Shown here: positions 2,643 through 20,677 of the stretch, piece by piece | Layout of the letters: each line of letters starts with the position of its first letter | Position numbering within the stretch: the first letter of the stretch is position 1 | Assembly (NCBI GenBank): GCA_903894155.1 | Contig: CAITPF010000313.1 | Span: forward strand, 1-43,612 | Source: an uncultured beta proteobacterium | GTDB taxonomy: Bacteria > Pseudomonadota > Gammaproteobacteria > Burkholderiales > Burkholderiaceae_B | Length of the DNA stretch: 43,612 nt | Reading direction: 5' to 3' | Position numbers and translations under genes: made by a program | The notes under the pieces: model-generated | Databases searched by the model: none | Told to the model about the DNA's origin: nothing | What the model saw: only the letters and a program-made list of their open reading frames with translations

Positions 2643-2841
2643 TGGTCTTGTCTGCCCTGAATATGGTTAACGTTTTCTTCAGCCGCCTCAGCACCCGGAA
2701 ATTCGACCCAGGTGCCACGCAGGCTGACGGAGGATTTTAAGCCAGCTCCGAATGTCGCTGGACAATCGGGCCGCTTTCCTTCAAATTGCCCCTACAACGC
2801 TGCGGGCCCGGGCGACCACAACAACTACCAGGAGACCCTTC

Positions 2842-3696
2842 ATGAGATTCGGATGGCATGTTGTATTGACCAAGGACACCGCTGGGCGCGTCGCGGACAC
2901 TGCGCGCTTCTGGTCGCTTCTCGAAACGTATGCCAACCGCATCGTGGGGCCCAGCGACTCGGTCGAGTTACTGTTCACGCGTAGCCGCACACTGAGCACT
3001 CAAACGCTGATGACCGTCGTGAACACGATTACGCTGGTCAACGATGTCCTCGAGGCGCAAGCCGCGGGGCTCGATGGCGTCGTGCTGGCCGCCTCGATCG
3101 ACCCGGGCGTCTATGAGGCGCGGAGCATCGCGCGCATCCCGGTCGTGGGATCGATCGAGTCCGCGCTTGCCATCAGCGGCTTCATCGGGCAGAAGGCCGG
3201 CATCGTGACGATTGCAGGCGGGGCGGACCCCGCATCCTACGCACGCACCATCGAGCAGAACGCCTCGCGGTACGGCTGCAGGGACAAACTGATTGCCAAC
3301 CGTCCCGTTCGGGCGCTCGACCAGTCCTGGCAGGAGTTCTATCGTTGCTATTCAGACGCGGTCTCAGGCAATGGCGACGCCTTTCTATCCGCCTTTGACG
3401 CAACCGCGCGCGAACTGGTCCGCGACGGCGCAGACGTCGTGATCTGCGGCAACCAGCTATTCGGTGCGGTGCTCGATCATTACGGTCAACTCAAGTGCAC
3501 GTCCAACAATGTGCCGCTGATCGACAATACCGCCGCGGGCCTCAAGATGCTGCAGGTACTGAACTCGCTGCGCGCGACCACAGGCCTGGACATCAGCCGG
3601 ACCGGCGTCTTTCAGTCGCCTTCGCACGATTCAACCGAAAACGTGGCGCGGATGCTCGGCGCACTGTCTGGCGGCATCATCGGTGCCGTCGGGTAG
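2842..3696 (+). CDS. Asp/Glu/hydantoin racemase-fold protein with a single catalytic Cys
   Basis: The start is the ATG at 2842, seven bases after a GGAG ribosome-binding site; the frame is open further upstream but has no better start. The 284-residue product resembles the Asp/Glu/hydantoin racemase superfamily, whose racemases use two cysteines on opposite sides of the substrate. The second is present (VVICGNQ, about Cys202). At the first site, normally Cys just before the DPG turn, the sequence reads AASIDPG, with Ala/Ser near residues 84-85. A single Cys at the second site is the arrangement of arylmalonate decarboxylase. Racemisation is therefore doubtful, and a decarboxylase or isomerase is equally possible. 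Neighbours are a PanE-like gene and a Bug-type binding protein on the other strand. Confidence 0.8.
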   Translation: MRFGWHVVLTKDTAGRVADTARFWSLLETYANRIVGPSDSVELLFTRSRTLSTQTLMTVVNTITLVNDVLEAQAAGLDGVVLAASIDPGVYEARSIARIPVVGSIESALAISGFIGQKAGIVTIAGGADPASYARTIEQNASRYGCRDKLIANRPVRALDQSWQEFYRCYSDAVSGNGDAFLSAFDATARELVRDGADVVICGNQLFGAVLDHYGQLKCTSNNVPLIDNTAAGLKMLQVLNSLRATTGLDISRTGVFQSPSHDSTENVARMLGALSGGIIGAVG

Positions 3697-3710
3697 AGAC
3701 GCCCCGGGTT

Positions 3711-3731
3711 CTTGTCCTGGTGCGCGACAAG
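3711..3731. terminator. Possible bidirectional terminator hairpin
   Basis: CTTGTC at 3711-3716 and GACAAG at 3726-3731 form a perfect 6-bp stem with a 9-base loop. GGG at 3706-3708 and CCC just after the stem could extend it past a two-base bulge. It lies between the convergent ends of the racemase-fold gene and the Bug gene. There is no clear T tract, so the call is weak. Confidence 0.3.
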
Positions 3732-3777
3732 CCCCATCATTCAGGGCCAGCAGGGGTGCAACCGCAGCCCGGCGACC

Positions 3778-4773
3778 TCAATCGTCAGCGCGCACACCGG
3801 CTTCGCGCACCACCTTGCCCCACTTGGCATGTTCGGCACGAATAAACCTGGCGAAATCATCCGGTGTCGGGCTGATCGCGATCTCGACCGCCGACTGGCG
3901 CAATAATTTCTGGTTAACAGGGTCCTTCAGCGCCGTAAGCAGCGCGGCATGGATTTTTTCGATGGCCTCGGGCGGCGTGCGAGCCGGTGCGAGCAGCCCG
4001 GTCCAGTTCACCGCAATGACGTCCGGATAGCCTTGTTCCGCAGCGGTCTTCAGGTCGGGAAGAAACTCCGAGCGGTTGCTGCTGGCGATCAGGATTCCGC
4101 GAAGCTTGCCGTCGCGGATCTGGCCATAGACCGCCGGCAAATCGACGAGGACCCCGTTGACATGGCCGGCCACGGCATCTGCGACCGCAGGCCCGGCCGC
4201 CTTGTAGGGCACGTGCTCAAGACGCGACAGCCCGGTCGTGCTCCTGAGCAATTCGAGGGCAAGGTGTGGAAGCCCTCCGTTGCCCGACGTGGAAATCGTC
4301 ACCCCCTGACGTTTGGCCATTTCAATCAGTTGGGGAAGATCGCGCACATCGACTTTCGAATTCAGGGCGAGCACTTCCGGTGCGAGCCCCATCAGGCTAA
4401 TTGGTGCAAAGTCCAGGAACGGGTCGTACGAGACGTTTTTGCTGGTATGGGGCGTCAACGCCAGCGGGCTCGACGTGGTGACCAGCAGCGTGTAGCCATC
4501 CGGGGCGGACTTCGCGACATGGTTGGTGGCAATCATGCCTGATGCACCGAGGATATTCGTGACGACCACGGGCGCGCCCAGCGTCTGCGACATGGAGGGC
4601 GCGAGGACGCGCGCAAGAATATCCGCAGAGCCGCCTGGTGCAAATGAAACGACAAGCGTCACGGGTTTCGAAGGGAAATCGGTCGCCGCGCGAGCTTGCA
4701 GGCAGGGCGCAGCCGACAGGATCAGCGCCGTCAGGACCGAGCCCAGCGATAACCATCGTCTGGAATGTTTCAT
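3778..4773 (-). CDS. Bug/TctC-family periplasmic binding protein 1
   Basis: A 331-residue extracytoplasmic binding protein of the tripartite tricarboxylate transporter (TctC/Bug) family. It has a cleavable signal peptide (residues 1-29, ending near QARA), then the family pattern DFPSKPVTLVVSFAPGG, a DGYTLL turn after the first domain, and YKAAGPAVAD in the second domain. The ATG follows AAAGGAG by seven bases. Known members bind carboxylates, amides or amino acids and deliver them to a TctAB permease or to a sensor. No tctA or tctB is present anywhere in the window. It lies 100 bp downstream of an MmgE/PrpD gene on the same strand and is probably cotranscribed with it. Confidence 0.95.
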   Translation of the reverse strand: MKHSRRWLSLGSVLTALILSAAPCLQARAATDFPSKPVTLVVSFAPGGSADILARVLAPSMSQTLGAPVVVTNILGASGMIATNHVAKSAPDGYTLLVTTSSPLALTPHTSKNVSYDPFLDFAPISLMGLAPEVLALNSKVDVRDLPQLIEMAKRQGVTISTSGNGGLPHLALELLRSTTGLSRLEHVPYKAAGPAVADAVAGHVNGVLVDLPAVYGQIRDGKLRGILIASSNRSEFLPDLKTAAEQGYPDVIAVNWTGLLAPARTPPEAIEKIHAALLTALKDPVNQKLLRQSAVEIAISPTPDDFARFIRAEHAKWGKVVREAGVRADD

Positions 4774-4873
4774 GGTGCTTCTCCTTTAAGGAAAACGACC
4801 CGTCCCACGATCCAGCTCTGGGTGTCGGCCATCCTAATGGCGTACCGTCACGGCGTCAATGACAAACGCGACG

Positions 4874-6262
4874 TTAGCTTGCGCCACCGGGCCCGGCGCC
4901 AGATCCGAGATCCAGGATCTCGGCAACATCACCGGATGCGGGGACGCTGCGGCAGGCCGCAAGCGACTCGGCACCAGCGTGGGCTCCGATCAGGGGCTCG
5001 GCAAGCGCGAGGAACTTGGCGTCGATCATGGCATCGGAAAGCGGGTTGGACATGCTGCCGATCGCGTTTTCGACAAAGTAAGAGAGCTTCTTCCCGTCGC
5101 GCGTGGTCACCGTAACGTAGGCCTGGTTGTCCGCCACTGCATCGTCGGCCATTGCTGACGCGCGCTCCTGCAGATCACGCACCCGCGGATCCCAGACGCA
5201 ATCCGGTTCACCCTGGGCGATTCCGATGGCGCCGTGCACGAAGGCAGCCGCCACCCAGTGAAAGAGGCTGACTTGCGCCTCGAACACGTTGACCGGAAGC
5301 TTTCGCCACGTGAGGGCCAGCGTGTTCGGATTGACGCGCATGTCGATATGGGCGATATCGGCATGCGATAGCCCATGTGCCCTGACCAGATGCAAACAAG
5401 CGTCAAGGGCAGGATGGATCACAATGCCGCACGGGTACGGCTTGTACGTGTTGTTCATCATTTCAAACCGGTCGCCCAATCCCTGTGTGATCAGCGCAGC
5501 ATCGGATCCATTGCCCAGTACCTGGAGCAAGCCGTTCTTTCCGTCGATGGAAATCGCGCTGCAGGTAAACCCCGCCTGTGCGAAATAGGCTGACGCCACC
5601 CCGGCGCGCGCGGCCATGCCGGGAACATAGGTCATGGCCATGCTGCCGTGCGTTGCGCGCATGCCGCCGGCATGTGTGGCGGCAAGACCGATGGCATCGA
5701 CCATTTGTTCCCGGGTTAGCCCGAGCACCAACCCGACCGCAACACCCGCGCCAATGCCACCCGACAGCCCGGTGATAAACCAGCCCCTGCTCGCGCCATT
5801 GGCCAGAATCGCACAACTCATTCGGCATTCAAGTTCCATTCCGGCGATGAGCGCGCCCAGCATGCTCGCTCCGCTGACCGGCTGACCTTCCTGGGACAAT
5901 TTATCCGCGACCGCAAGCAACGCCGACGCAATCGGCCCGGTTGGATGCGTCGTCGTCGCGAGGTGGGTGTCGTCGTAGGTCTGCGAGGTCGAGGCCAGCG
6001 CGCCCAGCAGTGCCGCGTCAGCGACGCAAAAGCGCTGGCCACGCCCCAGGACACGCACAGAGCCGCCCGACGCCATCGCAAGCATTCCTTGTACTGCCGC
6101 ATCCATGGCCGAGGTCGCCGATCCGCCAAGCGCACAGGCAACCCAGTTCGTCCACGCACGCACCCCCTCGGTGCGCACCCTGTCTGGCAGCGTGTCCCAC
6201 GTAAGCGCTCCTGCGAAATCAGCCATGCGGTACGTCACTGGATCTTTCGTTTGGTTCGACAC
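4874..6262 (-). CDS. MmgE/PrpD family protein 1
   Basis: A 462-residue protein of the MmgE/PrpD family, named after 2-methylcitrate dehydratase; cis-aconitate decarboxylase is another member. Family features are TYDDTHLATTTHPTGP (the conserved Asp/His-rich region, about residues 115-130), a following Ala/Gly-rich helical stretch, and NTYKPYPCGIVIHPALDA in the second half. The start is GTG, seven bases after GGAG. The window has no 2-methylcitrate cycle genes (prpB, prpC, acnD). In Alcaligenaceae, MmgE/PrpD genes often sit beside Bug genes, as here, so a dehydratase or decarboxylase on an imported organic acid is the likeliest role. Substrate unknown. Confidence 0.92.
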   Translation of the reverse strand: MSNQTKDPVTYRMADFAGALTWDTLPDRVRTEGVRAWTNWVACALGGSATSAMDAAVQGMLAMASGGSVRVLGRGQRFCVADAALLGALASTSQTYDDTHLATTTHPTGPIASALLAVADKLSQEGQPVSGASMLGALIAGMELECRMSCAILANGASRGWFITGLSGGIGAGVAVGLVLGLTREQMVDAIGLAATHAGGMRATHGSMAMTYVPGMAARAGVASAYFAQAGFTCSAISIDGKNGLLQVLGNGSDAALITQGLGDRFEMMNNTYKPYPCGIVIHPALDACLHLVRAHGLSHADIAHIDMRVNPNTLALTWRKLPVNVFEAQVSLFHWVAAAFVHGAIGIAQGEPDCVWDPRVRDLQERASAMADDAVADNQAYVTVTTRDGKKLSYFVENAIGSMSNPLSDAMIDAKFLALAEPLIGAHAGAESLAACRSVPASGDVAEILDLGSGAGPGGAS

Positions 6263-6444
6263 GAGATAGCTCCGGATTCAATGGAAATTACCGCCAGCGA
6301 TCACACTTTACACTCGAGGCCGGTTTAATAAGCCAAACGTCGGAATCGTCCGGAAACGAGGGAAAGCGATTAGAATCCACGTAATTATCCTGAGTCACTG
6401 TCATCCAGATTAGTGCTCGCGTCAAAAGAAAGACTGCTCACGGC

Positions 6445-7179
6445 ATGTTTCAAAAACTAAAGATGACCTCTGTGGTCGTCGCGATCGTTTTTTTTCTGCT
6501 GAGCCTGCTCGCGGTGCTGCAGTATTACCGTTTCCAGACGCTGCTCTACGAAGTCAATTCCTCCCGCATCAGCGTCCCGACCCAGGCATTGAAGAGTGAC
6601 ATCGAACGCAGCCTCGGTCTCGGGCTCGCGCTGCAAAGCAACGTCGCCCTGAAATCCATGCTCGAAACCACCATCGAACGCAATACCGATATACGCTCGA
6701 TCAGGCTGGCCGATACGAAGTCGGAGACGGCGCAGATTCTGTGGGAAGCCGGCAAACCACCGCCCCTGACCGAATTGCAACCTTCCGTGAGCGCGCACCT
6801 CCGTACAAACAAGGAAATGTCATTCGATCCCGACCACAAGGACGATTTCGTCCAGGTCTGGTCGATCCGTGACCCGATCGGACGCGTCGTCGCGGCGCTG
6901 GTCGTGCGAGTCGACAATACCGAAGCGCGGAACCTGCTGGCGGACGCGCGTGCACACCTGCTGCAATACTGGCTGCTACTGTGCGGCGCAACGCTCGTTT
7001 GCCTCGCCCCGATCCTGATTTACCTGTTCTCCAACCTGGATCGACTGATCAGTTCCGCCAACCGCATTCTGCGCGGAGATGCCGCGCCGAACGTGCAGCA
7101 TGCGCAGCACAGCGAGATCCTTGATCTCGCGACGCAAGTCATGGAGTCGGGCCAGTCGGCCGGCACCGGGAGGCGGTAA
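6445..7179 (+). CDS. Two-TM membrane sensor module without output domain
   Basis: This 244-residue protein has one transmembrane helix at about residues 8-28, a periplasmic region of about 140 residues, a second helix at about 173-195, and a short cytoplasmic tail resembling the start of a HAMP linker (NLDRLISSANRILRGD). No kinase, GGDEF or methyl-accepting domain follows. The periplasmic part shares a pattern with the sensor part of the next protein: a GLGL/GLGI turn, a hydrophobic helix, then ERNTDIRSIRLAD here against IENPEIAFIKVQR there. They look like related Cache/PDC-like modules. Its TAA overlaps the next ATG by one base (TAATG), so translation is coupled. I infer a subunit or ligand-sensing partner of the downstream MFS fusion. 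Family name not recognised. Confidence 0.75.
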   Translation: MFQKLKMTSVVVAIVFFLLSLLAVLQYYRFQTLLYEVNSSRISVPTQALKSDIERSLGLGLALQSNVALKSMLETTIERNTDIRSIRLADTKSETAQILWEAGKPPPLTELQPSVSAHLRTNKEMSFDPDHKDDFVQVWSIRDPIGRVVAALVVRVDNTEARNLLADARAHLLQYWLLLCGATLVCLAPILIYLFSNLDRLISSANRILRGDAAPNVQHAQHSEILDLATQVMESGQSAGTGRR

Positions 7180-9128
7180 TGCGTTACACCGCAACCGCCG
7201 GGAAGCCGGCCAGCATCGAAAAGACCCTCGCCAAGCGAACCTACGCGTTGTTTCTGCTATGCAGTGTGGCGGCAGTTGCCCTCCTGACCTGGTTCACGCT
7301 CGTGCATTTCGAGCGCATCCTGTTGCCGCAGGTTCTGGCCAAGAGCGACGTGATCGCCAGTTCGGTTCGTACAACGATTGAGGAAGCGACCGGCCTTGGC
7401 ATCCCCTACGATTCCCTTGTTGGCGTCGAGGATTTCCTGTCCGACACACTGATTGAAAATCCTGAAATCGCCTTCATCAAGGTGCAGCGCGAGGGCATGC
7501 GCGAGTACGTGAAGGCGCGCTCCGGGTCGGCGGGCGCGGCCAACCAGGAAGTCGTGCTGCGCCAGATCGACGCCGCAGGCGACGCACCCCGGGTGATCGT
7601 GGCAGTGCGTGCCTCGTACGTCCAGGAAAAGCTGCAGGTGATGGTCGGGGACGCCCTCGTCGTTTCGGTGGTCGCGCTCATCGCCGGGCTTGAGATCGCG
7701 CTGTTCTTCATGGTGCGATGGATCATGCGACCGATCGACACCTGGCGCGCCATGATTGGCGGAATGCAGTCGGGACAGCTTGACCGCGAGTTAAAGCAAC
7801 CCGAGTATGGTCCATTCTCGGAACTACTGCGCCTTTCCAACGACAAGATCACGACCCTGCGCAAGCGCTTCTCGGGCGGCGCACCGTCGGCCGATGGGCG
7901 TGGCGGCTGGTACCAGCCCCAGGCACGCGATGTGCGGATGGCGCTTTTCCTTTTTGTGTTATCCGAAGAATTGTTGCGGTCCTTCCTGACGCTTTACGTG
8001 AAGGAGTTTGCCGATCCGTCCAACCGGCTGAACACGGAACTTGCCATCAGCGCCCCGATCATTGCCTACATGTTCGTGGCCGGCGTTGGCACACTGTTCG
8101 GCAGCGGGCTGGTGGATCGCCTCGGGTTGCGCCGTGCGTTCGGGCTGAGCGTGATCGTGTCGACCGTGAGCCTCTGCGGCCTGGCTGCGGCGCATTCGGT
8201 GACAGAAATCGTCATCTGGCGTTCGGTCAGCGCCTTCGGGTATGCCGTGGCCACGATCGCCTGTCAGGTGTTCATCGCGCGCACAGGCACCGCCGGCGGC
8301 GCGAACGTCCGCGCCCTGTCGATTTTCGTCGCCGCAGTGACCGCCGCGTGCATTTGTGGCGCGCCGATCGGTGCGGTCCTCGCCGATATGCTTGGAAAGC
8401 CTGCGGCGCTGCTGTTCGCAGCACTGATGGCCGTGCTGTCCTGGGCGTTCTTCAGCAAGATCACCATGCCGCCCGCGCCGGCCGGCAAGGATGGGGAAGG
8501 GCCCGAGCGGGGCATGGCGGGGTTCGGCGCGCTGTTGCGCTGCCGTGCGATCCTCACAGCCATGGTGTGCGGCGTACTGCCGGGCAAGCTGATGATGGCC
8601 GGGATGCTGTTCTACATCACGCCGCTGCTGCTGCAACAGTACCAGTTGTCGCAAGCCAGTATCGGTCAGTTCTTCATTCTGTATTACGTCCTGCTCTCGC
8701 TGGGCAACGCCGTCATCAGCCGTGCCGATCCCAAATTGCGAACAAAGACCATGCTGGTCATCGCGGGCGCGGTGACAAGCGGCGCTGGCGGGCTGATCAT
8801 GATCTGGTTCAACACGCCACTTGCACTCGCGCTCGTCATTGTCTGCTTCGGCCTGGGGCAAAGCATCCTGCTCACCCCGCTCACCACCGTCATCCTCGAT
8901 ATCGCGGCACGCGAGCTACCCGATGTATCGCCTTCGCGCGCGCTGGCGCTGGCCCGCGCGTTCGAACGGGTCGGAGGTATCACCGGCGCCGTTCTTGCGG
9001 CCGTGCTCTCGGCGACGCTAGGCTATCGCAGCGCAACCGCGCTGCTGGGCATCATCGTACTCACGCTGGGGCTGGGCACCTTGTCGCTGCTGCGTCCCGT
9101 CAGCTCGCGGGGGTTTGCCCATGGCTAG
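7179..9128 (+). CDS. Sensor-HAMP-MFS fusion transporter
   Basis: A 649-residue fusion. Residues 22-44 form a first transmembrane helix, 45-155 a periplasmic sensor-like domain, 160-182 a second helix, and 184-225 a HAMP-like linker (RPIDTWRAMIGG, SELLRLSNDKI). From about 250 to 645 follows a full major facilitator domain with about twelve helices and the cytoplasmic-loop motif GSGLVDRLGLRRAFG. The MFS part alone matches a normal transporter length, so the sensor is an added N-terminal half. GGGAGG lies five bases before the ATG, and the previous gene ends within that ATG. The 3' end overlaps the next gene by eight bases. The architecture suggests a transporter gated by a periplasmic signal, or a sensor with an MFS core. 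Transport substrate unknown. Confidence 0.82.
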   Translation: MRYTATAGKPASIEKTLAKRTYALFLLCSVAAVALLTWFTLVHFERILLPQVLAKSDVIASSVRTTIEEATGLGIPYDSLVGVEDFLSDTLIENPEIAFIKVQREGMREYVKARSGSAGAANQEVVLRQIDAAGDAPRVIVAVRASYVQEKLQVMVGDALVVSVVALIAGLEIALFFMVRWIMRPIDTWRAMIGGMQSGQLDRELKQPEYGPFSELLRLSNDKITTLRKRFSGGAPSADGRGGWYQPQARDVRMALFLFVLSEELLRSFLTLYVKEFADPSNRLNTELAISAPIIAYMFVAGVGTLFGSGLVDRLGLRRAFGLSVIVSTVSLCGLAAAHSVTEIVIWRSVSAFGYAVATIACQVFIARTGTAGGANVRALSIFVAAVTAACICGAPIGAVLADMLGKPAALLFAALMAVLSWAFFSKITMPPAPAGKDGEGPERGMAGFGALLRCRAILTAMVCGVLPGKLMMAGMLFYITPLLLQQYQLSQASIGQFFILYYVLLSLGNAVISRADPKLRTKTMLVIAGAVTSGAGGLIMIWFNTPLALALVIVCFGLGQSILLTPLTTVILDIAARELPDVSPSRALALARAFERVGGITGAVLAAVLSATLGYRSATALLGIIVLTLGLGTLSLLRPVSSRGFAHG

Positions 9129-10137
9129 CCGCTCAGGATTCGTCCGGTTTGCGATTGTGCTGTGCGTATGGCTGGCCGCCAGCCTTGGGCTCGCCGCACA
9201 CGCGGCCGACGCCAAGCCGTACCGGATCACGATGGTGGTGTTCCGTGGCTGCGAGCAAGCTTGTCAGGGCTTCAAGGACTACTTCGCGGATCGCAAGATT
9301 CCGGTGGAGATCGAAATCCTGGACTGCAACACGGATCTCCTGAAGATCCCCGGATTCGTCGCCAGGGTCAAGGCGTCCAGGCCAGACCTGCTCGTGACCT
9401 GGGGCACAACCGTGTCACTCGACATGCTGGGCACCATCGACAATGTCGATCCGGCCAGGCACGTGACCGATATACCCGCGATATTCATGATCGCCTCGAC
9501 CCCGGTGGGATCCGGCCTGGTCCGCGACCTGGCGTCCCCGGGGCGCAACGTCACCGGCACGCTGTATATCGTCCCGGTGGAAACCCAGCTCAATGTCGCG
9601 CGGTTGTACATGCCGTTCAAGCGCGTCGGCTACATCCTGAATCCGACCGAAAACAATTCAAAGGTCGTGCTCGACGAGTTGCGCGCTGCGCAGGCCAAAT
9701 TCGGTTTCGAACTGGTCGAACGCACCGTTCCGCTGACCAAGGCGGGCAAGCCCGACGCCGCGAGCCTGCCGGCCATCGTCAACCAGCTTGCGGACGCCCG
9801 CACGGATTTCCTGTACTTCGCGCCAGACACCTTTTTGCTGCTGAACCGTGATGTCATCACCAAATCCGCAGTCGCGCGAAAGCTTCCGGTGCTGGCAACC
9901 TCTGAATCCGTCGTCCAGGAAGCCGATGCGCTGTTCGGCGTCGTCAACCACTATTACACCGTGGGCCAGCTGACGGGGTCCAAGGCTGAACTGATCCTCA
10001 CGAAGAAGGCCCAGGCGAAAGACATCCCGGTGGTCGCGCCACCGGGCTTCGCACTGATCGTCAACATGCGCGTGGCATCCCTGATTCAGGAATACCCTCC
10101 GATTCGCGTATTGAAAGTGGCAGAAATCGTACGCTAG
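9121..10137 (+). CDS. ABC_sub_bind-family periplasmic binding protein
   Basis: A 338-residue secreted protein. The ATG at 9121 is chosen because it starts a typical signal peptide (hydrophobic core FAIVLCVWLAASLGLAA, cleavage near AHAA); a TTG six bases earlier adds only two residues. The mature part resembles the ABC-transporter substrate-binding family PF04392: a VVFRGCEQACQGFKDYF start, then VTWGTTVSLDMLG, IFMIASTPVGSGLV, GRNVTGTLYIVP and a late second-domain segment. Three cysteines lie near the mature N-terminus (CEQAC, then ILDC), which may form a disulfide. No ABC permease or ATPase is nearby. Instead the gene overlaps the sensor-MFS gene, so it may present ligand to the sensor domains encoded just upstream. 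Confidence 0.88.
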   Translation: MASRSGFVRFAIVLCVWLAASLGLAAHAADAKPYRITMVVFRGCEQACQGFKDYFADRKIPVEIEILDCNTDLLKIPGFVARVKASRPDLLVTWGTTVSLDMLGTIDNVDPARHVTDIPAIFMIASTPVGSGLVRDLASPGRNVTGTLYIVPVETQLNVARLYMPFKRVGYILNPTENNSKVVLDELRAAQAKFGFELVERTVPLTKAGKPDAASLPAIVNQLADARTDFLYFAPDTFLLLNRDVITKSAVARKLPVLATSESVVQEADALFGVVNHYYTVGQLTGSKAELILTKKAQAKDIPVVAPPGFALIVNMRVASLIQEYPPIRVLKVAEIVR

Positions 10138-10155
10138 GCGCCAGCGGCCTTGCCG

Positions 10156-11097
10156 CTACGTCCGAAGCGCAAGGCCTTCGCCCACAAGCGGCGCGCGCAG
10201 GCGTTCGACGACCCCGTCGATTCCCTGTGTGTGTATGTCGGCTGCCGCCTGCTCGACCGCCGCAGGGCTGACGATCTCAAGCAGTTTTGGTGAAGTGGAC
10301 ACCGGGCAAAACCTGAGCACCAGATCGCTGTACGCATCGAACGAAACCAGGCAGATCCCGAGGCGACGCATTTGCTCGAAAACCTCGCTTCCCGGAAGGT
10401 GGTAGTAACGAAAGCCCTCCTGGGTTTGTTCCCGCATTTGCGGCTGACGGCCCGCTTCGAGCGTCTGCAGCACTTCAAGCAGACTGGTCAGCCCCATCTC
10501 GTAAAGATGCCCGATGTGGCTGAAGACCGAGGCGGATGGTGTCGCCGGCATCGTGGAAACCGAGTAAATCGGCCCGGTATCGATACCCATATCGACCTTG
10601 TGCAGCGTGCAGCCGAGCTTTTCCTCGCCGTTCACCAGCCCGCGCAACGGTGCGCACAAGCCGGCATACCCGGGCAACGCGCCCGGGTGAATGTTGTAGA
10701 TGCCAAAACGCGGGATTCGCTCGATATTGCCCTTGAAGATCAGGCTGAAACGGGCCGACACGATGACATCCGGCCCCCAGGCGCGAATCTCCTGCTCGCT
10801 TTCAGGCGAGTTGATCTTTTGGCTGATCTCGATGCTGACACCGTACTTGCGGGCACAGCCCTCGAACGTCAGCAGTTCGCCGGCATCAGCGCCAGCATCG
10901 ATCGCAGGGAAGACCACGTGCAGAGGAAAGTCGCGCTCAAGGAACTTTTCTTCCGAAAGCTCGGGCACCTGATTTTCGGCCGAGCGGGTCTTGTCCGAAA
11001 GGAACACACGCAGCTCATGCCCGGCAAGGCGGGGCAAAATAAAGTTGAGGATCGATGCCCCGAAAATATCGTTCTTGGTACAAAAGAGAATCTTCAT
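10156..11097 (-). CDS. Formyltransferase-fold enzyme
   Basis: A 313-residue protein of the formyl_trans_N fold, used by methionyl-tRNA, GAR and sugar N-formyltransferases with a folate formyl donor. The diagnostic stretch is YNIHPGALPGYAG followed by LHKVDMGIDTGPI, giving the catalytic Asn135, His137 and Asp173. The N-terminal Rossmann half starts MKILFCTKND and carries an unusual acidic insertion around residues 45-75. The C-terminal about 100 residues do not resemble the methionyl-tRNA formyltransferase tail, so it is not fmt. It lies 48 bp downstream of the TAXI-type gene on the same strand and is probably cotranscribed. The acceptor could be an amino sugar or another amine; the sequence does not tell. 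Confidence 0.82.
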   Translation of the reverse strand: MKILFCTKNDIFGASILNFILPRLAGHELRVFLSDKTRSAENQVPELSEEKFLERDFPLHVVFPAIDAGADAGELLTFEGCARKYGVSIEISQKINSPESEQEIRAWGPDVIVSARFSLIFKGNIERIPRFGIYNIHPGALPGYAGLCAPLRGLVNGEEKLGCTLHKVDMGIDTGPIYSVSTMPATPSASVFSHIGHLYEMGLTSLLEVLQTLEAGRQPQMREQTQEGFRYYHLPGSEVFEQMRRLGICLVSFDAYSDLVLRFCPVSTSPKLLEIVSPAAVEQAAADIHTQGIDGVVERLRAPLVGEGLALRT

Positions 11098-11145
11098 TAC
11101 CGCCTGCTGGATCCTAGGAGTTGGCTCGCTGCCCGGGCCGATCGT

Positions 11146-12438
11146 TCAAACCGCCGACCGTCCCTTGTGGCCCGGATGGCGGGCCGAGATATCGGAGATC
11201 AGCTTCGAGGCCTTCTTGCCTGCATGGTTGCTTTCAGTGAAATGGAGTTCGATCCGTCGAATGCGCTCGAGTTCGCGCTCGGATAAAGGAATCCTGAGCG
11301 ACTTCTTGTGCAGGGACTCCAGGGTGGCCACGTAACGATCGGCCGTACTGCTCACCCACATCGAATAGAGGCTGGGGAATCCCATAAAGCTGAAAAACAC
11401 ATACGCGCTCAGCACGAAACTCAGCAGCAACGCGATTTTGTCGAGGACGCCCGCGACCCAGAAGTTGAGCACCTTGTAGAGCGGAGGGATATAGCCGGTA
11501 CCGCTCTTGTAGATTTTTTCGGCGTCGGCGTTACTGTCGAGATCGCGCTCGAGGTCCATGGTCGGGAAGGTACCGCGTGCCGTGACGAGCGTCGGCGCCC
11601 TGAAGGCATCCTTGAGCGCCAGGGTCACGTCCGTCACGATGGCGGGATGCAGGTAATCCTTGGAAATCACCGTCACCGGTATGCCGACCATGTGGACGTC
11701 TGCGGGCGGAAGATCCTTTTCGAGGCTGAAACCGCCCCGGTCGATCGTCAGGTGGTGCAGGTATCCATACTTCTTTACGATCGCATCGGCGCGCTCGAGG
11801 GACATCAGTTTGACCTTGCCCCCTTCGCCTAGCCGCGCAACGATCTTGTTGTTGGTGGGCTGCAGGAAGAACGCAACGTCGATCAAGCCCCCTTCGACCG
11901 CGCTGGCCATCTCCATGAGCGAAAGCGTCACGAACGTTGCGTTCGACGAACTGATGCCATACAGCCCGAGGATCGCGTCGGTCACGATCCGCGCGCCGCT
12001 GTTGGCGGGGCTGACCCCAAGCCTGAGACCCGCGAACTGGCTTGGGCTGGTGATATCCAGCCCAGGGCGCAGGTAGATGAACAGCGGATCCATGGTGATG
12101 GACCCAAGCGACTGGATGTTTTCGTACTTGTCGTGATCGACCTCGTGCGCGATGAAGCCGATATCGACTTTGGACTTCGTGTCGTCGACTGCCTTGATGA
12201 TGTTCAGGGTCTCGTCGGTATTGACGATTTCGACCGCGACACCGTCGGCCTTGAGTTTGTCCCGCAGCATCTGGGCGGTCGTGTCGAAAAACCCGCCCTT
12301 GGGGCCCGCGGCGATGGTGATCTTCCTGGGTGGCGCGTTCAGGAAAACGGCGAGCACCAAGCCGATCGCCACGACCAGTGCGATCCAGGGAAGAAACCGG
12401 TAGATATTGAAGTTGCTATCGGGGGCTGCGTTACTCAT
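11146..12438 (-). CDS. TAXI-type solute-binding protein anchored by two TM helices
   Basis: A 430-residue protein. Residues 15-33 form an N-terminal transmembrane helix with no obvious cleavage site. A TAXI-family (TRAP-associated extracytoplasmic binding) domain follows: ITIAAGPKGGFFDTTAQMLRDKL, then DIGFIAHEVDHD and LRLGVSPANSGARIV. A second helix lies at about 333-356 (VLDKIALLLSFVLSAYVFF), then a charged C-terminal tail of about 70 residues with many Arg/Lys/Glu. Classical TAXI proteins are secreted and work with DctQM-type permeases; none is adjacent. The anchored form with a cytoplasmic tail suggests signalling, or scaffolding for the downstream formyltransferase. That role is inference. 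Confidence 0.85.
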   Translation of the reverse strand: MSNAAPDSNFNIYRFLPWIALVVAIGLVLAVFLNAPPRKITIAAGPKGGFFDTTAQMLRDKLKADGVAVEIVNTDETLNIIKAVDDTKSKVDIGFIAHEVDHDKYENIQSLGSITMDPLFIYLRPGLDITSPSQFAGLRLGVSPANSGARIVTDAILGLYGISSSNATFVTLSLMEMASAVEGGLIDVAFFLQPTNNKIVARLGEGGKVKLMSLERADAIVKKYGYLHHLTIDRGGFSLEKDLPPADVHMVGIPVTVISKDYLHPAIVTDVTLALKDAFRAPTLVTARGTFPTMDLERDLDSNADAEKIYKSGTGYIPPLYKVLNFWVAGVLDKIALLLSFVLSAYVFFSFMGFPSLYSMWVSSTADRYVATLESLHKKSLRIPLSERELERIRRIELHFTESNHAGKKASKLISDISARHPGHKGRSAV

Positions 12439-12485
12439 TTATCGAATTGGCAATCAAGTGGTTTGAAAAACGCGGCAAAAAAGCA

Positions 12486-12517
12486 GGGGTAAACCCCAGA
12501 GCATGAAAATACCATGC
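12486..12517. other. Two small inverted repeats upstream of the TAXI gene
   Basis: GGGG-TAAA-CCCC (12486-12497) and GCATG-N7-CATGC (12501-12517) lie in the 147-bp spacer between the oxidoreductase stop and the TAXI start. They could end the upstream transcript or bind a regulator. Neither has a T tract, and no promoter was assigned. Confidence 0.3.
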
Positions 12518-12585
12518 GTGATCTTAGGGGAATTATCCACCGATGGCTAGTGATTCCTTGATACGACAGACATCCCGCGATCGGC

Positions 12586-13596
12586 TCAGGGCGTCAGGAT
12601 GATTTTCCCGAAGACGCTGCGCTCCTGCAGCAACCTGAAGGCAGCAGGGGCTTGCGCGAGGGGCAGCACCCGGTCAATCGCCGGCGTAATGCTGCCTGTC
12701 CTCACCAGATCGATCAGGCTGTACAGATCATCCTCAAGCCATCCGTTGGAGCCGATGATATTGAGTTCGAACGTCCAGATGTACCGGATGTCTTCCTTAG
12801 GGTCGAAGCCCGCGGTCGCGCCACAGGTGAGCAAACGCCCGTCGTTCGTCAGGCATTTCAGCGAAGGGACCCAGGTGTCGCCCCCGGTGAAGTTGACCAC
12901 GACATCGACGCCGCCGGCGTCATGGCCGCCAAACCGGGCCTTGCCGTACTTTTTCTGGATTTCCCTGACCCAATCCTGTGAAGCGTAATTAACCGCGTCA
13001 TCCGCGCCGAGCGCCTTGAGACGGTCGATTTTCTCGTCGGACGAGGCAGCCACGATCACGTGGCACCCCGCCGCCTTGGCAAGCTGTACGCAACAAGTGC
13101 CCACGCCACCCGAAGCCCCGAGGATCAGGACTTTCTCGCCAGGCTTCAGGCTGCCGCGCACCACCATCATGCGATAGGCGGTTCCGTAGGCGACCGGCAA
13201 CGCCGCCGCCGCCTCGAAGGAAACGTCGTCGGGTAGCGGCAGCAGGAGCTTTTCCCTGACTTTGCAATATTCGGCCAGGCCGCCGTCCGAACGCTCGCCC
13301 ACCAGGGTTTGCGCCTTGCGGTCAAACGGATCCACCAGGACGCGGTCACCCGGCTTGAAGCGCGTCGCGCCCGGCCCGCAGGAAACCACCTCCCCGGCGA
13401 CGTCGATCCCCATGATCAGCGGCAGGTCCAGCTTGATTCCCGGCATTCCGCGCAGCGTGAACAGATCGTGATAGTTGAGCGCGCAGGCCCGAACCCTGAT
13501 CACCACCTCGTGCTCGCCCGCCACGGGATCCGGCCAGTTTGGCTCGTATTCGATATTCTCGATCGGGCCGTGGGCCCGCAGCACTTGCGCTTTCAT
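12586..13596 (-). CDS. Quinone-oxidoreductase-like MDR family dehydrogenase
   Basis: A 336-residue medium-chain dehydrogenase/reductase. It has the N-terminal GroES-like part (ACALNYHDLFTLRGMPG, LIMGIDVAGEV) and the NADPH-binding Rossmann motif ILGASGGVGTCCVQLAKAAG around residue 158. The structural-zinc four-Cys lobe of true alcohol dehydrogenases is absent: the region after VDPFD has no CxxCxxC pattern. It is therefore closer to the quinone oxidoreductase / enoyl reductase branch. It lies 77 bp downstream of an acyl-CoA ligase gene on the same strand and probably reduces an alpha,beta-unsaturated or quinone-like intermediate of that pathway. Start ATG, normal length. Confidence 0.9.
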   Translation of the reverse strand: MKAQVLRAHGPIENIEYEPNWPDPVAGEHEVVIRVRACALNYHDLFTLRGMPGIKLDLPLIMGIDVAGEVVSCGPGATRFKPGDRVLVDPFDRKAQTLVGERSDGGLAEYCKVREKLLLPLPDDVSFEAAAALPVAYGTAYRMMVVRGSLKPGEKVLILGASGGVGTCCVQLAKAAGCHVIVAASSDEKIDRLKALGADDAVNYASQDWVREIQKKYGKARFGGHDAGGVDVVVNFTGGDTWVPSLKCLTNDGRLLTCGATAGFDPKEDIRYIWTFELNIIGSNGWLEDDLYSLIDLVRTGSITPAIDRVLPLAQAPAAFRLLQERSVFGKIILTP

Positions 13597-13673
13597 TTCA
13601 ACTCCAGTTCAGTCCTGTCTGGTCCGACGGGGATAGAGTTTATCCGCTCGCGCCGGAAATCCGCTGCGGCCAG

Positions 13674-15173
13674 TCAACGGGAAAACGTCCGTGCGCGCTG
13701 CGCGAGCGCCTGCCGATCGATCTTGTTGGTGCCCGCCAGGGGCATTTCGGCCAGAAACTCCACGAAGCGAGGGTGTTGATAAGCCGGGGCATGTTTCAGG
13801 GCAAAGGCGCGGACTTCCCCGGCGGTGAGCGAAGCGCCGGGGCGGCAAACGATGAAGGCGGCGGGGATCTGGCCCTTGATCTCATCGTCCACCGCAATGA
13901 CGACGGCCTGGGCGATCCCGGTGTGCCGTTCGAGCATTTTCTCGACCTCGCCCGGGTAGATGTTTTCTCCGCCGCACACGAACATATCGTCCACGCGGCC
14001 CACAAAATAATAGAACCCCGCCTCGTCCCGGCGCATGACATCGCCCGTGACGTACCAGCCACCAACGAACCGGCTGCGGGATTGCTCCGGTCGATTCAGG
14101 TAGCCTGGTGCCACCGCGCGACTGCGGATCCAGAGTTCACCTTCGTCCGGGCTGCTGCCGTCGCGCAGCTCCATTTCGACCTCGTCCAGCGGATATCCCA
14201 GGGAAAGCCGGGGCCGGACCAGCCCGCGCGGATGGGGCCCGAAGGCGAGCGGGCCGGACTCGGTCGTCCCCCACCAGTTGGATACGACGGCGTTCGGAAA
14301 TATGCCGGCCAGGCGCTCAAGCAACGCCTCGGTGACTGGCGCAGACCCGGATTTGACGCTCGCCACCCCTCTGAAATCGAGTTGTCCCAGCAGATCGGAT
14401 TCCCGGCACGCGAGGGCAAACATCGTCGGCACTGCCGTGACCATGTCACAGCGCAGGCGCGCGGCGACCTCGAGGTACTGGCGTGCATCGAACTTGCAAA
14501 GCATCACGTTCGTGCCGCCCATCGACGATGTCAGCAGGCACTGGATCACGGCGTTCATGTGATACAGCGGCGCGGCGAAGAGCGCCCGTTTGCCGAGGAA
14601 AGGCGGCGATATGCGGGCGAGCGTGCGGATGACCCAGACGTAGCCGCCATGCGTGAGCGGTACGCCCTTGGGTAGACCGGTCGATCCCGACGTATAAAGA
14701 ATCATCGCGAACTCATCGGGCGCCATCGACGCGGCTTGCCCAGCGACCATGCCATGGGGCGGCTCGCTTCGCGCCTGGCCGACGGCCTCGTCGATGTCGA
14801 CGATCCGCGCATCGCCTGATCCGGCCAGCCCCGCATGCTGCGCATCGACCAGCAACAGGCCGATTTGCGCGTCAGCGATGATGTGCTCGATCGTCGCCGC
14901 CGGAAGCTTGAAATTGATCGGCACGACCACCAGGCCCGCGCGCATGATACCGAGCCCGGCAATCAGGTTCGACGCGCTGTTGGAGGCCAGAACGCCAACA
15001 CGCGCGCCACGTGCAAGCCCCGCTCGTCCGAGCCATTGCGCGAACGCGTCTGCGTCGTGCTGCATGCGCGCGAAGGAGTAATGCGTCGTGCGCCCGTCGG
15101 GGGACACCTCGATCAGCCAGGGAGTCTGCGCGATGCCTTCGCGCGCCGCGACATCCCCAAGATTGTTGCTCAT
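13674..15173 (-). CDS. Class I adenylate-forming acyl-CoA synthetase
   Basis: A 499-residue AMP-binding enzyme that activates a carboxylic acid to an acyl-CoA through an acyl-adenylate. The ATP P-loop is MILYTSGSTGLPKG. Later core motifs are SNWWGTTESGPLAFG, WYVTGDVMRRDEAGFYYFVGR and DDMFVCGGENIYPGEVE, and the C-terminal catalytic Lys is in MPLAGTNKIDRQAL. All regions are present at normal length. The ATG starts nine bases after the thioesterase stop, so the two genes are coupled. The type of acid (aliphatic, aromatic or terpenoid) cannot be read from these motifs. Confidence 0.94.
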   Translation of the reverse strand: MSNNLGDVAAREGIAQTPWLIEVSPDGRTTHYSFARMQHDADAFAQWLGRAGLARGARVGVLASNSASNLIAGLGIMRAGLVVVPINFKLPAATIEHIIADAQIGLLLVDAQHAGLAGSGDARIVDIDEAVGQARSEPPHGMVAGQAASMAPDEFAMILYTSGSTGLPKGVPLTHGGYVWVIRTLARISPPFLGKRALFAAPLYHMNAVIQCLLTSSMGGTNVMLCKFDARQYLEVAARLRCDMVTAVPTMFALACRESDLLGQLDFRGVASVKSGSAPVTEALLERLAGIFPNAVVSNWWGTTESGPLAFGPHPRGLVRPRLSLGYPLDEVEMELRDGSSPDEGELWIRSRAVAPGYLNRPEQSRSRFVGGWYVTGDVMRRDEAGFYYFVGRVDDMFVCGGENIYPGEVEKMLERHTGIAQAVVIAVDDEIKGQIPAAFIVCRPGASLTAGEVRAFALKHAPAYQHPRFVEFLAEMPLAGTNKIDRQALAQRARTFSR

Positions 15174-15735: not shown

Positions 15736-15894
15736 ATGTCCGTTCGGGAAGCCGCATTTATGCTGAAGGGCACCACGGTCCCCCTCCCGCCAGAGAGCGT
15801 CGCCAATGCGATCGTTCACTTGGTGACGAGCCCAGGCACGATCGGTTGTATCGACTATCTCGAGCTACGCCCAAATGGCGCAGCCACTCACTAA
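15736..15894 (+). pseudogene. Probable remnant of an SDR 3' end
   Basis: A 52-codon frame from ATG to TAA. Its product resembles the last 40 residues of short-chain dehydrogenases of the YdfG-like kind: PLPPESVANAIVHLV, then IDYLELRPNG, matching the usual PEDVA-AV...I-IRPT ending. No Rossmann motif or YxxxK precedes it in any frame, so the body of the gene seems deleted. It ends 16 bases before the LivK-like ATG. The alternative is a small unrelated peptide. Confidence 0.4.
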
Positions 15895-15910
15895 CCCTGG
15901 AGCCCTCCTC

Positions 15911-17149
15911 ATGAACCTCACTCTATCGAGACTTGCCGCGTTCGTCGCCCCGGCAATCCTGGCCACAGGCCTTGCGAGCGCGCAAACGCCGAAGATATCC
16001 GACGAGGTCGTCAAGATTGGCGTGCTGACCGACATGACGGGCACGTTTTCCGATATCTCCGGGCCTGGCGCCATCATCGCGACCAAGATGGCGGTCGAGG
16101 ATTTTGGCGGCAAAGTCCTGGGCAAGCCTATCGAGGTCCTCTCCTCGGATCACCAGAACAAGCCGGACATCGGCGTGGCCAAGGCACGCGAATGGATTGA
16201 CGTCGACCATGTCGACATGCTCGCCGACGTGATGAACTCATCTGTCGCGCTGGCCGTGGTGCGCCTTGTCAAGGAAAAGGACCGTATCGCCATCGTCAAT
16301 GGCGCAAGCACGTCGCGACTGACGAACGAAGACTGCACGCCCAACAGCATTCACTACAACTGGGACACCTACTCGATCGCCAACGGCACCGCCCGCGCGG
16401 TCGTCAAGCAAGGCGGCGACACCTGGTACTTCGTGACCGTTGATTTCGCCTATGGCCTTTCGCTGCAGTCCGACGCCGAAGCCGCGCTCGCCCAGCTGGG
16501 TGCCAAGGTGCTGGGCGGCGTCAGGCATCCGCTGAATTCATCCGACATGTCATCGTTCCTCGTGCAGGCGCAGAGTTCAGGCGCCCGCATCATCGCGCTG
16601 TCCAATGGCGGAGGCGACACCATCAACGCGATCAAGACCGCGCATGACTTCGGGATCGGTCGCGACGGCAAGCAATCGCTGGTGGGCCTGGCGATCAACC
16701 TCAACGACACGCACGCGCTGGGCCTCGAACAGGCGCAGGGCCTGATGCTCACCGAGGCGTTCTACTGGGATCTGAACGACAAGACCCGCGCCTGGTCGAA
16801 GCGGTTCTTCGAGAAGATGGGCAAAATGCCGACGTCCACGCAAGCCGCCATCTACTCATCCACGCTGCACTATCTCAAGGCGGTCGAGGCGGCCGGCACC
16901 GACTCCGCACAGCCCGTCATGGCCAAGATGCGCGAAACTCCGGTCAACGATTTCTTCGCTACCAACGGCAAGATCCGGATCGACGGGCGCATGGTGCACG
17001 ACATGGTGCTTGCGCAAGTCAAGAAGCCATCGGAATCCGCGTATCCCTGGGACTACTACAAGATCCTGGCGACGATCCCTGGCGACGAAGCATTTCTGCC
17101 GCTCGCGAAGAGCAAGTGCTACCTGGTGACCGAGGCCGCGAAAAAATAA
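15911..17149 (+). CDS. LivK-like (Peripla_BP_6) ABC substrate-binding protein
   Basis: A 412-residue periplasmic binding protein of the branched-chain amino acid/aromatic acid type. The ATG at 15911 is chosen because GGAG lies eight bases upstream and it opens a clean signal peptide (cleavage near LASA-QTPK). Family motifs are VVKIGVLTDMTGTFSDISG at the mature N-terminus, then FVTVDFAYGLSL and IIALSNGGGDTINAIK. No LivHMGF permease is present, so it is an orphan here. It is followed after four bases by a Bug gene and then an MmgE/PrpD gene, all plus strand. It may feed a distant ABC importer. Ligand unknown. Confidence 0.93.
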   Translation: MNLTLSRLAAFVAPAILATGLASAQTPKISDEVVKIGVLTDMTGTFSDISGPGAIIATKMAVEDFGGKVLGKPIEVLSSDHQNKPDIGVAKAREWIDVDHVDMLADVMNSSVALAVVRLVKEKDRIAIVNGASTSRLTNEDCTPNSIHYNWDTYSIANGTARAVVKQGGDTWYFVTVDFAYGLSLQSDAEAALAQLGAKVLGGVRHPLNSSDMSSFLVQAQSSGARIIALSNGGGDTINAIKTAHDFGIGRDGKQSLVGLAINLNDTHALGLEQAQGLMLTEAFYWDLNDKTRAWSKRFFEKMGKMPTSTQAAIYSSTLHYLKAVEAAGTDSAQPVMAKMRETPVNDFFATNGKIRIDGRMVHDMVLAQVKKPSESAYPWDYYKILATIPGDEAFLPLAKSKCYLVTEAAKK

Positions 17150-17153
17150 TCCG

Positions 17154-18155
17154 ATGATGTGGATCGCACGGTGGTTGCGCCAATCCGTCCAGTGCCTGTC
17201 GGCGCTCGCGTGCGTGCTGCTTGCAGGCACTCAGTGGATTCCAACGGCGCTGGCGCAGGACTATCCCGTGCGGCCGGTCCGGATCATCGCGCCTTTTCCG
17301 CCGGGCGGCGGTGCCGACATCATCCTGCGTGCGCTCGGGCCCCGCATGGCGCAAGCGCTCGGCCAGCCGGTCATCATCGACAACCACGCAGGGGGCGGCG
17401 GCACGATCGGAACCAAGCTTGCAGCCGCGGCGACGCCCGACGGCTACACGCTGGTCCTGGGCCTGACCGGAACGCTGGCCATCAACCCCGGGCTCTATCC
17501 GGACCTGTCCTACGACCCCCAGAAGGATTTCACGCCTATCGCCCTGCTTGCGACCGGCGCGAACGTCCTCGTGGCAAATCCCGGCCTTGAAATCCGGTCG
17601 TTCGATGAACTGATCGCGTACGCAAAGCTTCACCCCGGCAAGCTGACGTACGCCTCGTCCGGGATTGGCGGGGCACCGCACCTGGCCGGCGTACTGCTTG
17701 GATCCATGGCTGACGTAGAGCTTGTCCACATTCCGTACAAAGGCGGCGCGCAAGCAACGGCAGATTTGCTGGGCGGCCACGTATCTCTCATGTTCGCAGG
17801 GCTCGGCCCAGCCATCTCCAACATCCAGTCAGGCAAGTTGCGCGCCCTGGGTGTCGCAAGCCCAGGCCGTTCTTCGCTGCTGCCGGATGTACCCGCCATC
17901 GGTGAATCCCTGCCGGGATTTTCCGCCGTTACCTGGTTTGGAATCCTCGCGCCCAGCGGCACGCCCGCCCCCATCGTCGCCCGCCTTTCCGGGGTCATCC
18001 TGGAGATCGCCGCCAGTCGCGATTTTGCACGCCAGCTTGAGGCCGAAGGGTATGAAGTCAGCGCCGGGTCGCCCCAGTCCTTTGCAACGCTCATCGCCTC
18101 GGACAAGGCCAAGTGGGCCGACATCATTCGCACGACCGGCGCGACGATTCAGTAG
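17154..18155 (+). CDS. Bug/TctC-family periplasmic binding protein 2
   Basis: A 333-residue Bug protein with a signal peptide ending near ALAQ. The family start QDYPVRPVRIIAPFPPGGGAD follows, with DGYTLVLG, SYDPQKDFTPI and VHIPYKGGAQAT. Two ATGs in tandem (17154 and 17157) can serve as start. It begins four bases after the LivK-like stop and sits 49 bases before an MmgE/PrpD gene, so it is the middle gene of a three-gene operon. It is unusual to find two different classes of binding protein adjacent with no permease for either. Confidence 0.95.
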   Translation: MMWIARWLRQSVQCLSALACVLLAGTQWIPTALAQDYPVRPVRIIAPFPPGGGADIILRALGPRMAQALGQPVIIDNHAGGGGTIGTKLAAAATPDGYTLVLGLTGTLAINPGLYPDLSYDPQKDFTPIALLATGANVLVANPGLEIRSFDELIAYAKLHPGKLTYASSGIGGAPHLAGVLLGSMADVELVHIPYKGGAQATADLLGGHVSLMFAGLGPAISNIQSGKLRALGVASPGRSSLLPDVPAIGESLPGFSAVTWFGILAPSGTPAPIVARLSGVILEIAASRDFARQLEAEGYEVSAGSPQSFATLIASDKAKWADIIRTTGATIQ

Positions 18156-20655: not shown

Positions 20656-20677
20656 GACCGGCACCTTGTTGGGCTGT

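Follow-up and report, generated by a model that had tools for sequence, protein, structure and literature searches.

A sensor-MFS fusion linked to an ABC_sub_bind binding protein: a possible receptor-gated transport module

Receptors of the HAMP-linked kind drive kinases, cyclases and chemoreceptors, and the TRAP and TTT transporters, to our knowledge, have no receptor half. Here, we analyze a 43,612-nucleotide stretch of DNA from an uncultured beta proteobacterium of Burkholderiaceae_B (contig CAITPF010000313.1, assembly GCA_903894155.1; hereafter the window) in which three overlapping genes encode a sensor-like protein of 244 residues (here called sensA), a second sensor fused to a carrier of the major facilitator superfamily (MFS; 649 residues, sensMFS), and a periplasmic binding protein of the ABC_sub_bind family (PF04392; 340 residues). 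In print, the ideas that come closest are LuxPQ and KsAmt5 (PMC8534201), TRAP and TTT (PMC5812351), and TAXI-GltS (PMC12344293). In LuxP-LuxQ, a periplasmic protein and a PAS/Cache-type receptor likewise form the input, but the output is a histidine kinase and the LuxQ sensor domains stand in tandem in one chain (PMC8534201). TRAP and TTT systems share with the present cassette secondary transport linked to a binding protein, on which they depend, but their carriers are unrelated and work by inward symport (PMC5812351). The TAXI-GltS system of Bordetella pertussis combines a binding protein with a secondary carrier of an unexpected family, and fusions are found, but GltS is a symporter acting in uptake, and neither "MFS" nor "major facilitator" occurs in the available text (PMC12344293).

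Among the matches listed from the open-licence PubMed Central literature, no paper dealt with a HAMP-MFS or Cache-MFS fusion; in the available part of PMC10924467 the relevant words stand only in unrelated gene lists, and "MFS" and "transporter" are absent from the available text of the Cache census PMC4822843 and from that of PMC1592074. We found no description of a system of this kind in that literature, and its likely members in print are the genes BtrO and BtrN, listed as being of unknown function in a review of type III secretion (PMC7498569). They belong to the Bordetella btr locus, which comprises BtrV (STAS), BtrW (serine kinase), alr, BtrO (MFS), BtrU (SpoIIE), BtrN ("ABC transporter") and BtrM (gamma-glutamylcysteine synthetase) (PMC7498569). 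For the cassette in the window we tentatively put forward a three-protein sensory transport module, in which the binding protein and a pair of Cache/HAMP sensors would gate an MFS exporter.

The cassette and the homology of its sensors

The three open reading frames (ORFs) lie head to tail on the + strand (6445-7179, 7179-9128 and 9115-10137), and their overlaps are as a first-pass annotation of the window had described them. The sensA/sensMFS junction reads TAATG, with base 7179 common to stop and start. The third ORF starts within the sensMFS gene; its first start codon is TTG 9115, but the alternative ATG 9121 is in our judgment the likelier start, and the overlap is 8-14 bases.

6445..7179, + strand: sensA, 244 residues; transmembrane (TM) segment, periplasmic Cache-like domain, TM segment and HAMP-like tail, no output domain (ORF, hydropathy, profile match)
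7168..7173, + strand: GGGAGG, ribosome-binding-like site ahead of the 649-residue gene
7179..9128, + strand: sensMFS, 649 residues; sensor, HAMP-like segment and MFS carrier (ORF, MFS_1, homologues with the same fusion)
7305..7658, + strand: sCache_3-like periplasmic sensor domain of sensMFS, residues ~43-160 (family profile matches HAMP-kinase N-termini; lies between TM segments 24-42 and 161-179)
7710..7874, + strand: HAMP-like segment of sensMFS, residues ~178-232 (HAMP match in homologue L055; transducer match)
7926..9113, + strand: MFS carrier half of sensMFS, residues ~250-645 (MFS_1; TM5 and loop motifs in the family alignment)
9115..10137, + strand: ABC_sub_bind (PF04392) periplasmic binding protein, likely start ATG 9121 (PF04392; hydrophobic N-terminus, residues 9-27)

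Pfam assigns MFS_1 (PF07690) to residues 255-578 of sensMFS (E 3.6e-35; 122 bits against a cut-off of 33.4) and PF04392 to the 340-residue protein (E 3.6e-25; 89.3 bits against 25.9), and it finds no family in sensA or in the N-terminal half of sensMFS (the N-half). A crude hydropathy scan at its threshold gives two TM segments in sensA, whose chain stops after the HAMP-like segment, in keeping with its earlier description as a two-TM sensor without output. In sensMFS the same scan gives 2 + 11 segments; of the "complete 12-helix MFS" first described, the MFS assignment stands, whereas 11 helices were found in the MFS part where the family leads one to expect 12. The binding protein had been said to lack an ABC transporter, and indeed no ABC permease or ATPase was seen beside its gene among the neighbors scanned at 2752-15173, a subset of the window's ORFs. 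The linked carrier is an MFS protein and not the DctQM, TctAB or GltS that would mark a TRAP, TTT or TAXI-GltS system. A promoter scan found one site against a shuffle mean of 1.0, and five terminators were found against 3.2.

Because Pfam shows neither a sensor domain nor HAMP in the window proteins, these labels rest on relatives. Profiles were built from alignments of 22 N-halves, of 21 sensA proteins and of the N-terminal parts of three hybrid kinases, themselves matches of the family profile (L068-L070; L-numbers denote the loci compared in this analysis), and were compared with one another. All three kinases carry HAMP by Pfam, together with sCache_3_2 at E 8.5e-17 (L068), 1.3e-15 (L069) and 1.9e-5, the last below cut-off (L070). 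The N-half profile matches the kinase N-termini at a probability of 99.4 (E 1.4e-21; 228 columns, the HAMP region included), and the sensA profile at 99.0 (E 7.2e-18), while sensA matches the kinase N-termini at 98.7; controls (the MFS half, a column-shuffled profile and a reversed profile) gave at most 0.7, with the exception of kinase versus MFS at 8.5. Pfam also finds HAMP in the Azospirillum homologue L055 (E 4e-9, residues 184-233), and among solved structures the family profile matches the sensory rhodopsin II transducer (E 5.8e-4, profile positions 149-233), which we take to bear HAMP domains in that stretch. Sub-threshold NCBIfam matches of sensA residues 145-232 are to CreC/BaeS, and the Pfam Cache models match nothing in the window proteins and reach sub-threshold matches in a few relatives.

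Judged by the profile-profile matches, the HAMP domain of L055 and the transducer match, the N-half is a receptor module of the TM-Cache-TM-HAMP type; by the same homology, sensA is a second such module, related to the N-half, that stops after its HAMP-like segment. The related pattern of the two proteins, remarked upon at first pass, is thus one of homology, and the possibility that the N-half is not a sensor, which would have undone that annotation, is ruled out by its match to Cache-HAMP kinase inputs. As for the HAMP-like linker of the same annotation, the L055 domain, the transducer and the kinase profile speak for it, whereas the window protein itself has no Pfam HAMP.

In the hybrid kinase loci L068 and L069, the homologous TM-Cache-TM-HAMP input is likewise found beside a PF04392-type gene, but a kinase and receiver replace the MFS carrier and these loci have no separate sensA match. 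Since homologous inputs there drive histidine kinases beside PF04392 genes, the MFS half of sensMFS occupies the normal output position. In the region 5097-12181 of L069, the PF04392-type gene lies between an sCache_3-HAMP-PAS-GAF hybrid kinase and an AcrB-type RND pump.

Linkage of the genes and joining of the sensors

Whole-genome searches, made with the fusion sequence or its alignment and counting the window's own genome in the totals, gave matches in 18/61 near relatives (E ≤ 0.001), 69/250 family genomes (E ≤ 1e-30), 25/398 phylum genomes (E ≤ 1e-20) and 5/369 class genomes (E ≤ 1e-40), a number of which cover the MFS half only. Fifteen of the 25 phylum genomes were fetched in addition to the window's own, and the other nine have the MFS half only, in frames of 403-476 residues; 13 of the 69 family genomes belong to the window's genus (own included), and 22 of the other 56 were examined. 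Two named plasmid records, from Vibrio sp. THAF190c and Azospirillum brasilense Sp7 (the latter being L055), carry the full cassette. In all, 54 loci have an MFS carrier fused to a sensor-type N-terminal extension; three of them are cut inside the MFS gene by a contig end (L041, L042 and L097, the first two of which do have sensA), leaving 51 for the counts below, from which loci with a kinase output (L068-L070) or without a sensor half (L050-L053, L056 and L071) are excluded. The fusion recurs in several families, as the homologue search proposed at first pass could have shown or denied, and these dozens of homologues rule out an assembly accident.

A binding-protein gene lies within ~2.2 kb of the fusion in 49/51 loci at E ≤ 1e-5 and in 51/51 when the matches in L065 and L067 (1.5e-5 and 1.6e-5) are included, the former being confirmed by PF04392 (E 1.7e-11); in L040 the gene is cut by the contig end. 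Among six MFS relatives that lack the sensor half, none has a binding-protein or sensor match at E ≤ 0.01 (the contigs of L053 and L071 measure 4.7 and 3.9 kb). As background, PF04392 is not a common family: 71/200 phylum genomes have any match to it, and the window's own genome has two. Trees of the MFS half and of the binding protein agree (n = 49 loci; L036 and L037, 96% identical, were left out), with r 0.83 against a maximum of 0.26 in 2000 permutations, although this correlation includes shared ancestry.

The sensors themselves occur in a split and in a joined form. Twenty-five of the 51 fusions are shorter than 715 residues. In 24 of these, sensA is encoded on the same strand at a distance of 0-72 bases; in the remaining one, L096, the flank is only 104 bases long. 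The remaining 26 are longer (at least 743 residues by ORF, some with an over-long start), and in 23 of them two separate sensor stretches precede the MFS half (domain E 0.05), the exceptions being L077 and L080 with one stretch and L079 with none. The three genes thus stay together across loci, as their arrangement in the window had led the first annotation to ask. The strongest argument for sensA and the fusion acting as one receptor is this natural joining of two sensors in one chain; with one MFS carrier to each two-sensor receptor, the lack of an output in sensA would be accounted for.

The carrier, the proposed mechanism and its rivals

By sequence, the nearest solved relatives of the MFS half include the vesicular amine carriers (VMAT), NorA and EmrB, and its weak NCBIfam matches are mostly to drug-efflux models. 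The window protein has the TM5 motif ICGAPIGA and the loop motif GLVDRLGLRR; 36/40 family members retain the TM5 pattern, Gxx[ILVF]G[AGS], and much of the family has a TM1 signature like FxxEELxRSFLP. We take the TM5 pattern and the loop to be the motif C-like and motif A-like elements of H+-antiporter-type MFS exporters. The MFS half therefore looks like an exporter of that type, and, because it carries these antiporter-like features, export appears likelier than uptake. With regard to substrate, the solved relatives of the binding-protein family are 6hni, 3lkv and 3lft, all of which presumably bind aromatic amino acids. The TrpX-type proteins belong to the same PF04392 family, but TrpX itself is assigned to a system for tryptophan uptake (PMC9382623), and the 340-residue protein scores 79.7 of 390 bits with the NCBIfam TrpX model, below its cut-off. 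An amino-acid-type substrate is a reasonable guess, and no more than that.

In the module that we tentatively propose, the PF04392 protein would capture a small ligand in the periplasm and engage the paired Cache-type domains of sensA and of the N-half; the HAMP segments of both sensors would then pair across the membrane, switching the carrier that is covalently attached. This carrier would probably use H+ antiport to export a compound resembling an amino acid. In the pair of sensors, sensA would be the half that lacks an output, one MFS monomer being driven by a two-part receptor, and in other lineages both sensors would act from a single chain with one MFS carrier. That the set is kept together in distantly related bacteria suggests a transporter switched by outside sensing.

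A number of observations weigh against this proposal. The loci are not independent, 33/51 coming from the window's GTDB family (of the rest, 16 belong to ten other families and two are the loci on the named plasmids), and shared ancestry enters the tree agreement. The cassette is also patchy: it is present whole or in part in 12/31 other genomes of the window's genus, and a fused sensor-MFS with a binding protein was found in 11/397 other phylum genomes and 3/368 other class genomes at the E-value limits used. HAMP is matched by Pfam at E < 0.1 in only 5/40 family members, the window protein not among them, and in L048-type proteins no more than a short linker seems to join the sensor to the MFS carrier; a full HAMP is therefore not universal in the family, nor HAMP essential to it. 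In the L048 type, the binding protein is only distantly related (E 5e-6 to 3e-12) and its gene lies on the opposite strand; the acidic-basic pair of the TM2-TM3 loop is present in only 27/40 family members, and the third kinase with such an input, L070, has no binding-protein match on its 6.1-kb contig. Finally, the AlphaFold models are poor (mean pLDDT 43.9 for the fusion and 55.4 for sensA, the close sequences numbering 5 and 6, respectively). Moderate confidence is confined to the fusion's sensor region, where residues 51-120 have block means of 58-79 and show helices and strands in a Cache-like order. A fold search with the fusion model returned, among the matches listed, MFS-type carriers at TM-scores of at most 0.23 by query length, and the sensA model had no match at E ≤ 0.001.

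It is rather unlikely, in our estimate, that the MFS half is instead mainly an input or signaling device, a transceptor whose transport state or bound substrate is read out through a neighboring phosphatase, cyclase or GGDEF protein. KsAmt5, a transporter-sensor that binds ammonium without efficient transport, offers a precedent (PMC8534201), and a SpoIIE, nucleotide-cyclase or GGDEF gene lies within 7 kb in 29/51 loci, including the window itself through a GGDEF-EAL gene 5.6 kb away; however, in the close relatives L034-L040 (some on short contigs) our probes detect none of these enzymes over the same 7 kb, and the TM5 transport motif is kept in 36/40 family members. We consider it unlikely, too, that the cassette is a binding-protein-dependent importer, an MFS counterpart of TRAP, TTT or TAXI-GltS in which the PF04392 protein passes its ligand to the carrier and the sensors serve as a docking scaffold. 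The constant linkage of the binding protein would be expected of such a system, and in TAXI-GltS an unrelated secondary carrier has adopted a binding protein (PMC12344293), but the antiporters among the nearest solved relatives and the conserved antiporter-like TM5 motif lower the case for uptake, and the sensor half has its homologues among the input modules of kinases. An ordinary drug exporter with an accidental N-terminal extension and two unrelated neighbors, although Pfam by itself shows only MFS_1 and PF04392 in the window proteins, is very improbable given the linkage conserved across families, the single-chain versions, the sensor homology and the agreement of the trees.

Neighboring genes and the btr locus

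Neighbors were sought with BLAST probes within 7 kb of the fusion in the 51 loci, and examples of the families were confirmed by Pfam. SpoIIE phosphatase genes were found in 21 loci, HATPase in 19, alanine racemase in 16, GCS2 in 11, STAS in 10, formyltransferase and GNAT-like genes in 9 each, ATP-grasp in 5, nucleotide cyclase, GGDEF and VgrG in 4 each, and ClpV in 2. All 16 alanine racemase loci fall in one GTDB family, so this link may reflect synteny passed on by descent. Support for the GNAT label is weak, with a Pfam E of 0.044 in L045 and no match at E ≤ 0.001 in L063, L074 and L076. In L045-L047, a second lineage of the window's own genus, a GNAT-like gene stands between the fusion and the binding-protein gene. 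The convergent neighbor in the window is a formyltransferase-like gene:

10156..11097, - strand: formyltransferase-like gene (PF00551, E 1.7e-17), adjoining the cassette in the window and in L034-L039

Two of the nine formyltransferase matches (L059 and L078) are 3.8-6 kb away and in other lineages. Beyond this gene, the window encodes a 430-residue TAXI/NMT1-like binding protein (11146-12438, - strand; hydrophobic residues 15-33 and 335-353), of a membrane-anchored TAXI type, which is kept beside the formyltransferase gene in L034, L035 and L037 and beside which no carrier gene was identified. Elsewhere in the window (3778-4773, 15875-17149, 17154-18155, 19654-20664, 23708-24709 and 21623-23506) are four TctC-type receptors, one Peripla_BP_6 protein and a DctQ-DctM fusion. 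In L061, a small SBP_bac_3-like protein (5581-6306, - strand; E 3.6e-6) follows the PF04392-type gene.

Near the SpoIIE genes, a second sensA-like gene adjoins the phosphatase beside the cassette in L059 (10359-15299), L076 (1010-4574), L077 (12194-15761), L078 (9773-13449) and L064 (553-3392), and the sensor profile also matches the phosphatase itself in L076, L077 and L078; in loci of this type, two sensors may form a comparable input to a phosphatase. Type VI secretion genes (VgrG, PAAR, DUF6931, FHA, TssJ or ClpV, depending on the locus) lie near the cassette in L054, L057, L058, L061, L062 and L094. The cassette directly precedes VgrG in the first three of these, lies between type VI FHA/TssJ genes and ClpV in L061, and also adjoins ClpV in L062.

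The gene order in L048 is STAS, HATPase, alr, sensor-MFS, SpoIIE and PF04392, and L049 has the same core with GCS2 beyond PF04392. Matched by order and product names, not by sequence, the btr locus agrees with L048/L049-type loci in both gene content and order, and from this gene order we conclude that BtrO and BtrN are likely members of the sensor-MFS/PF04392 family. The cassette in the window differs in being a distant branch with split sensors, beside which the 7-kb probes found no partner-switch genes.

A wider claim, which we regard as doubtful, is that these loci represent a new class of receptor-transporter, with an MFS exporter as the output of a binding-protein/Cache/HAMP receptor and, in several lineages, a place in a self-sensing circuit. 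An amino-acid-modifying enzyme (a racemase, ATP-grasp ligase, acyltransferase-like protein or formyltransferase) would make a compound that the MFS carrier releases, and the binding protein and sensors would gauge it outside the cell and set both its export and the neighboring phosphatase or cyclase; the users of such a circuit would include type III and type VI secretion loci. If the proposal is true, the same input that elsewhere drives a kinase would here drive a transporter, joining receptor signaling and transport in one machine and placing the MFS among the small number of carriers that have a binding protein of their own. The proposal would also give a testable role to BtrO and BtrN of the Bordetella btr locus and to the cassettes found in type VI secretion loci.

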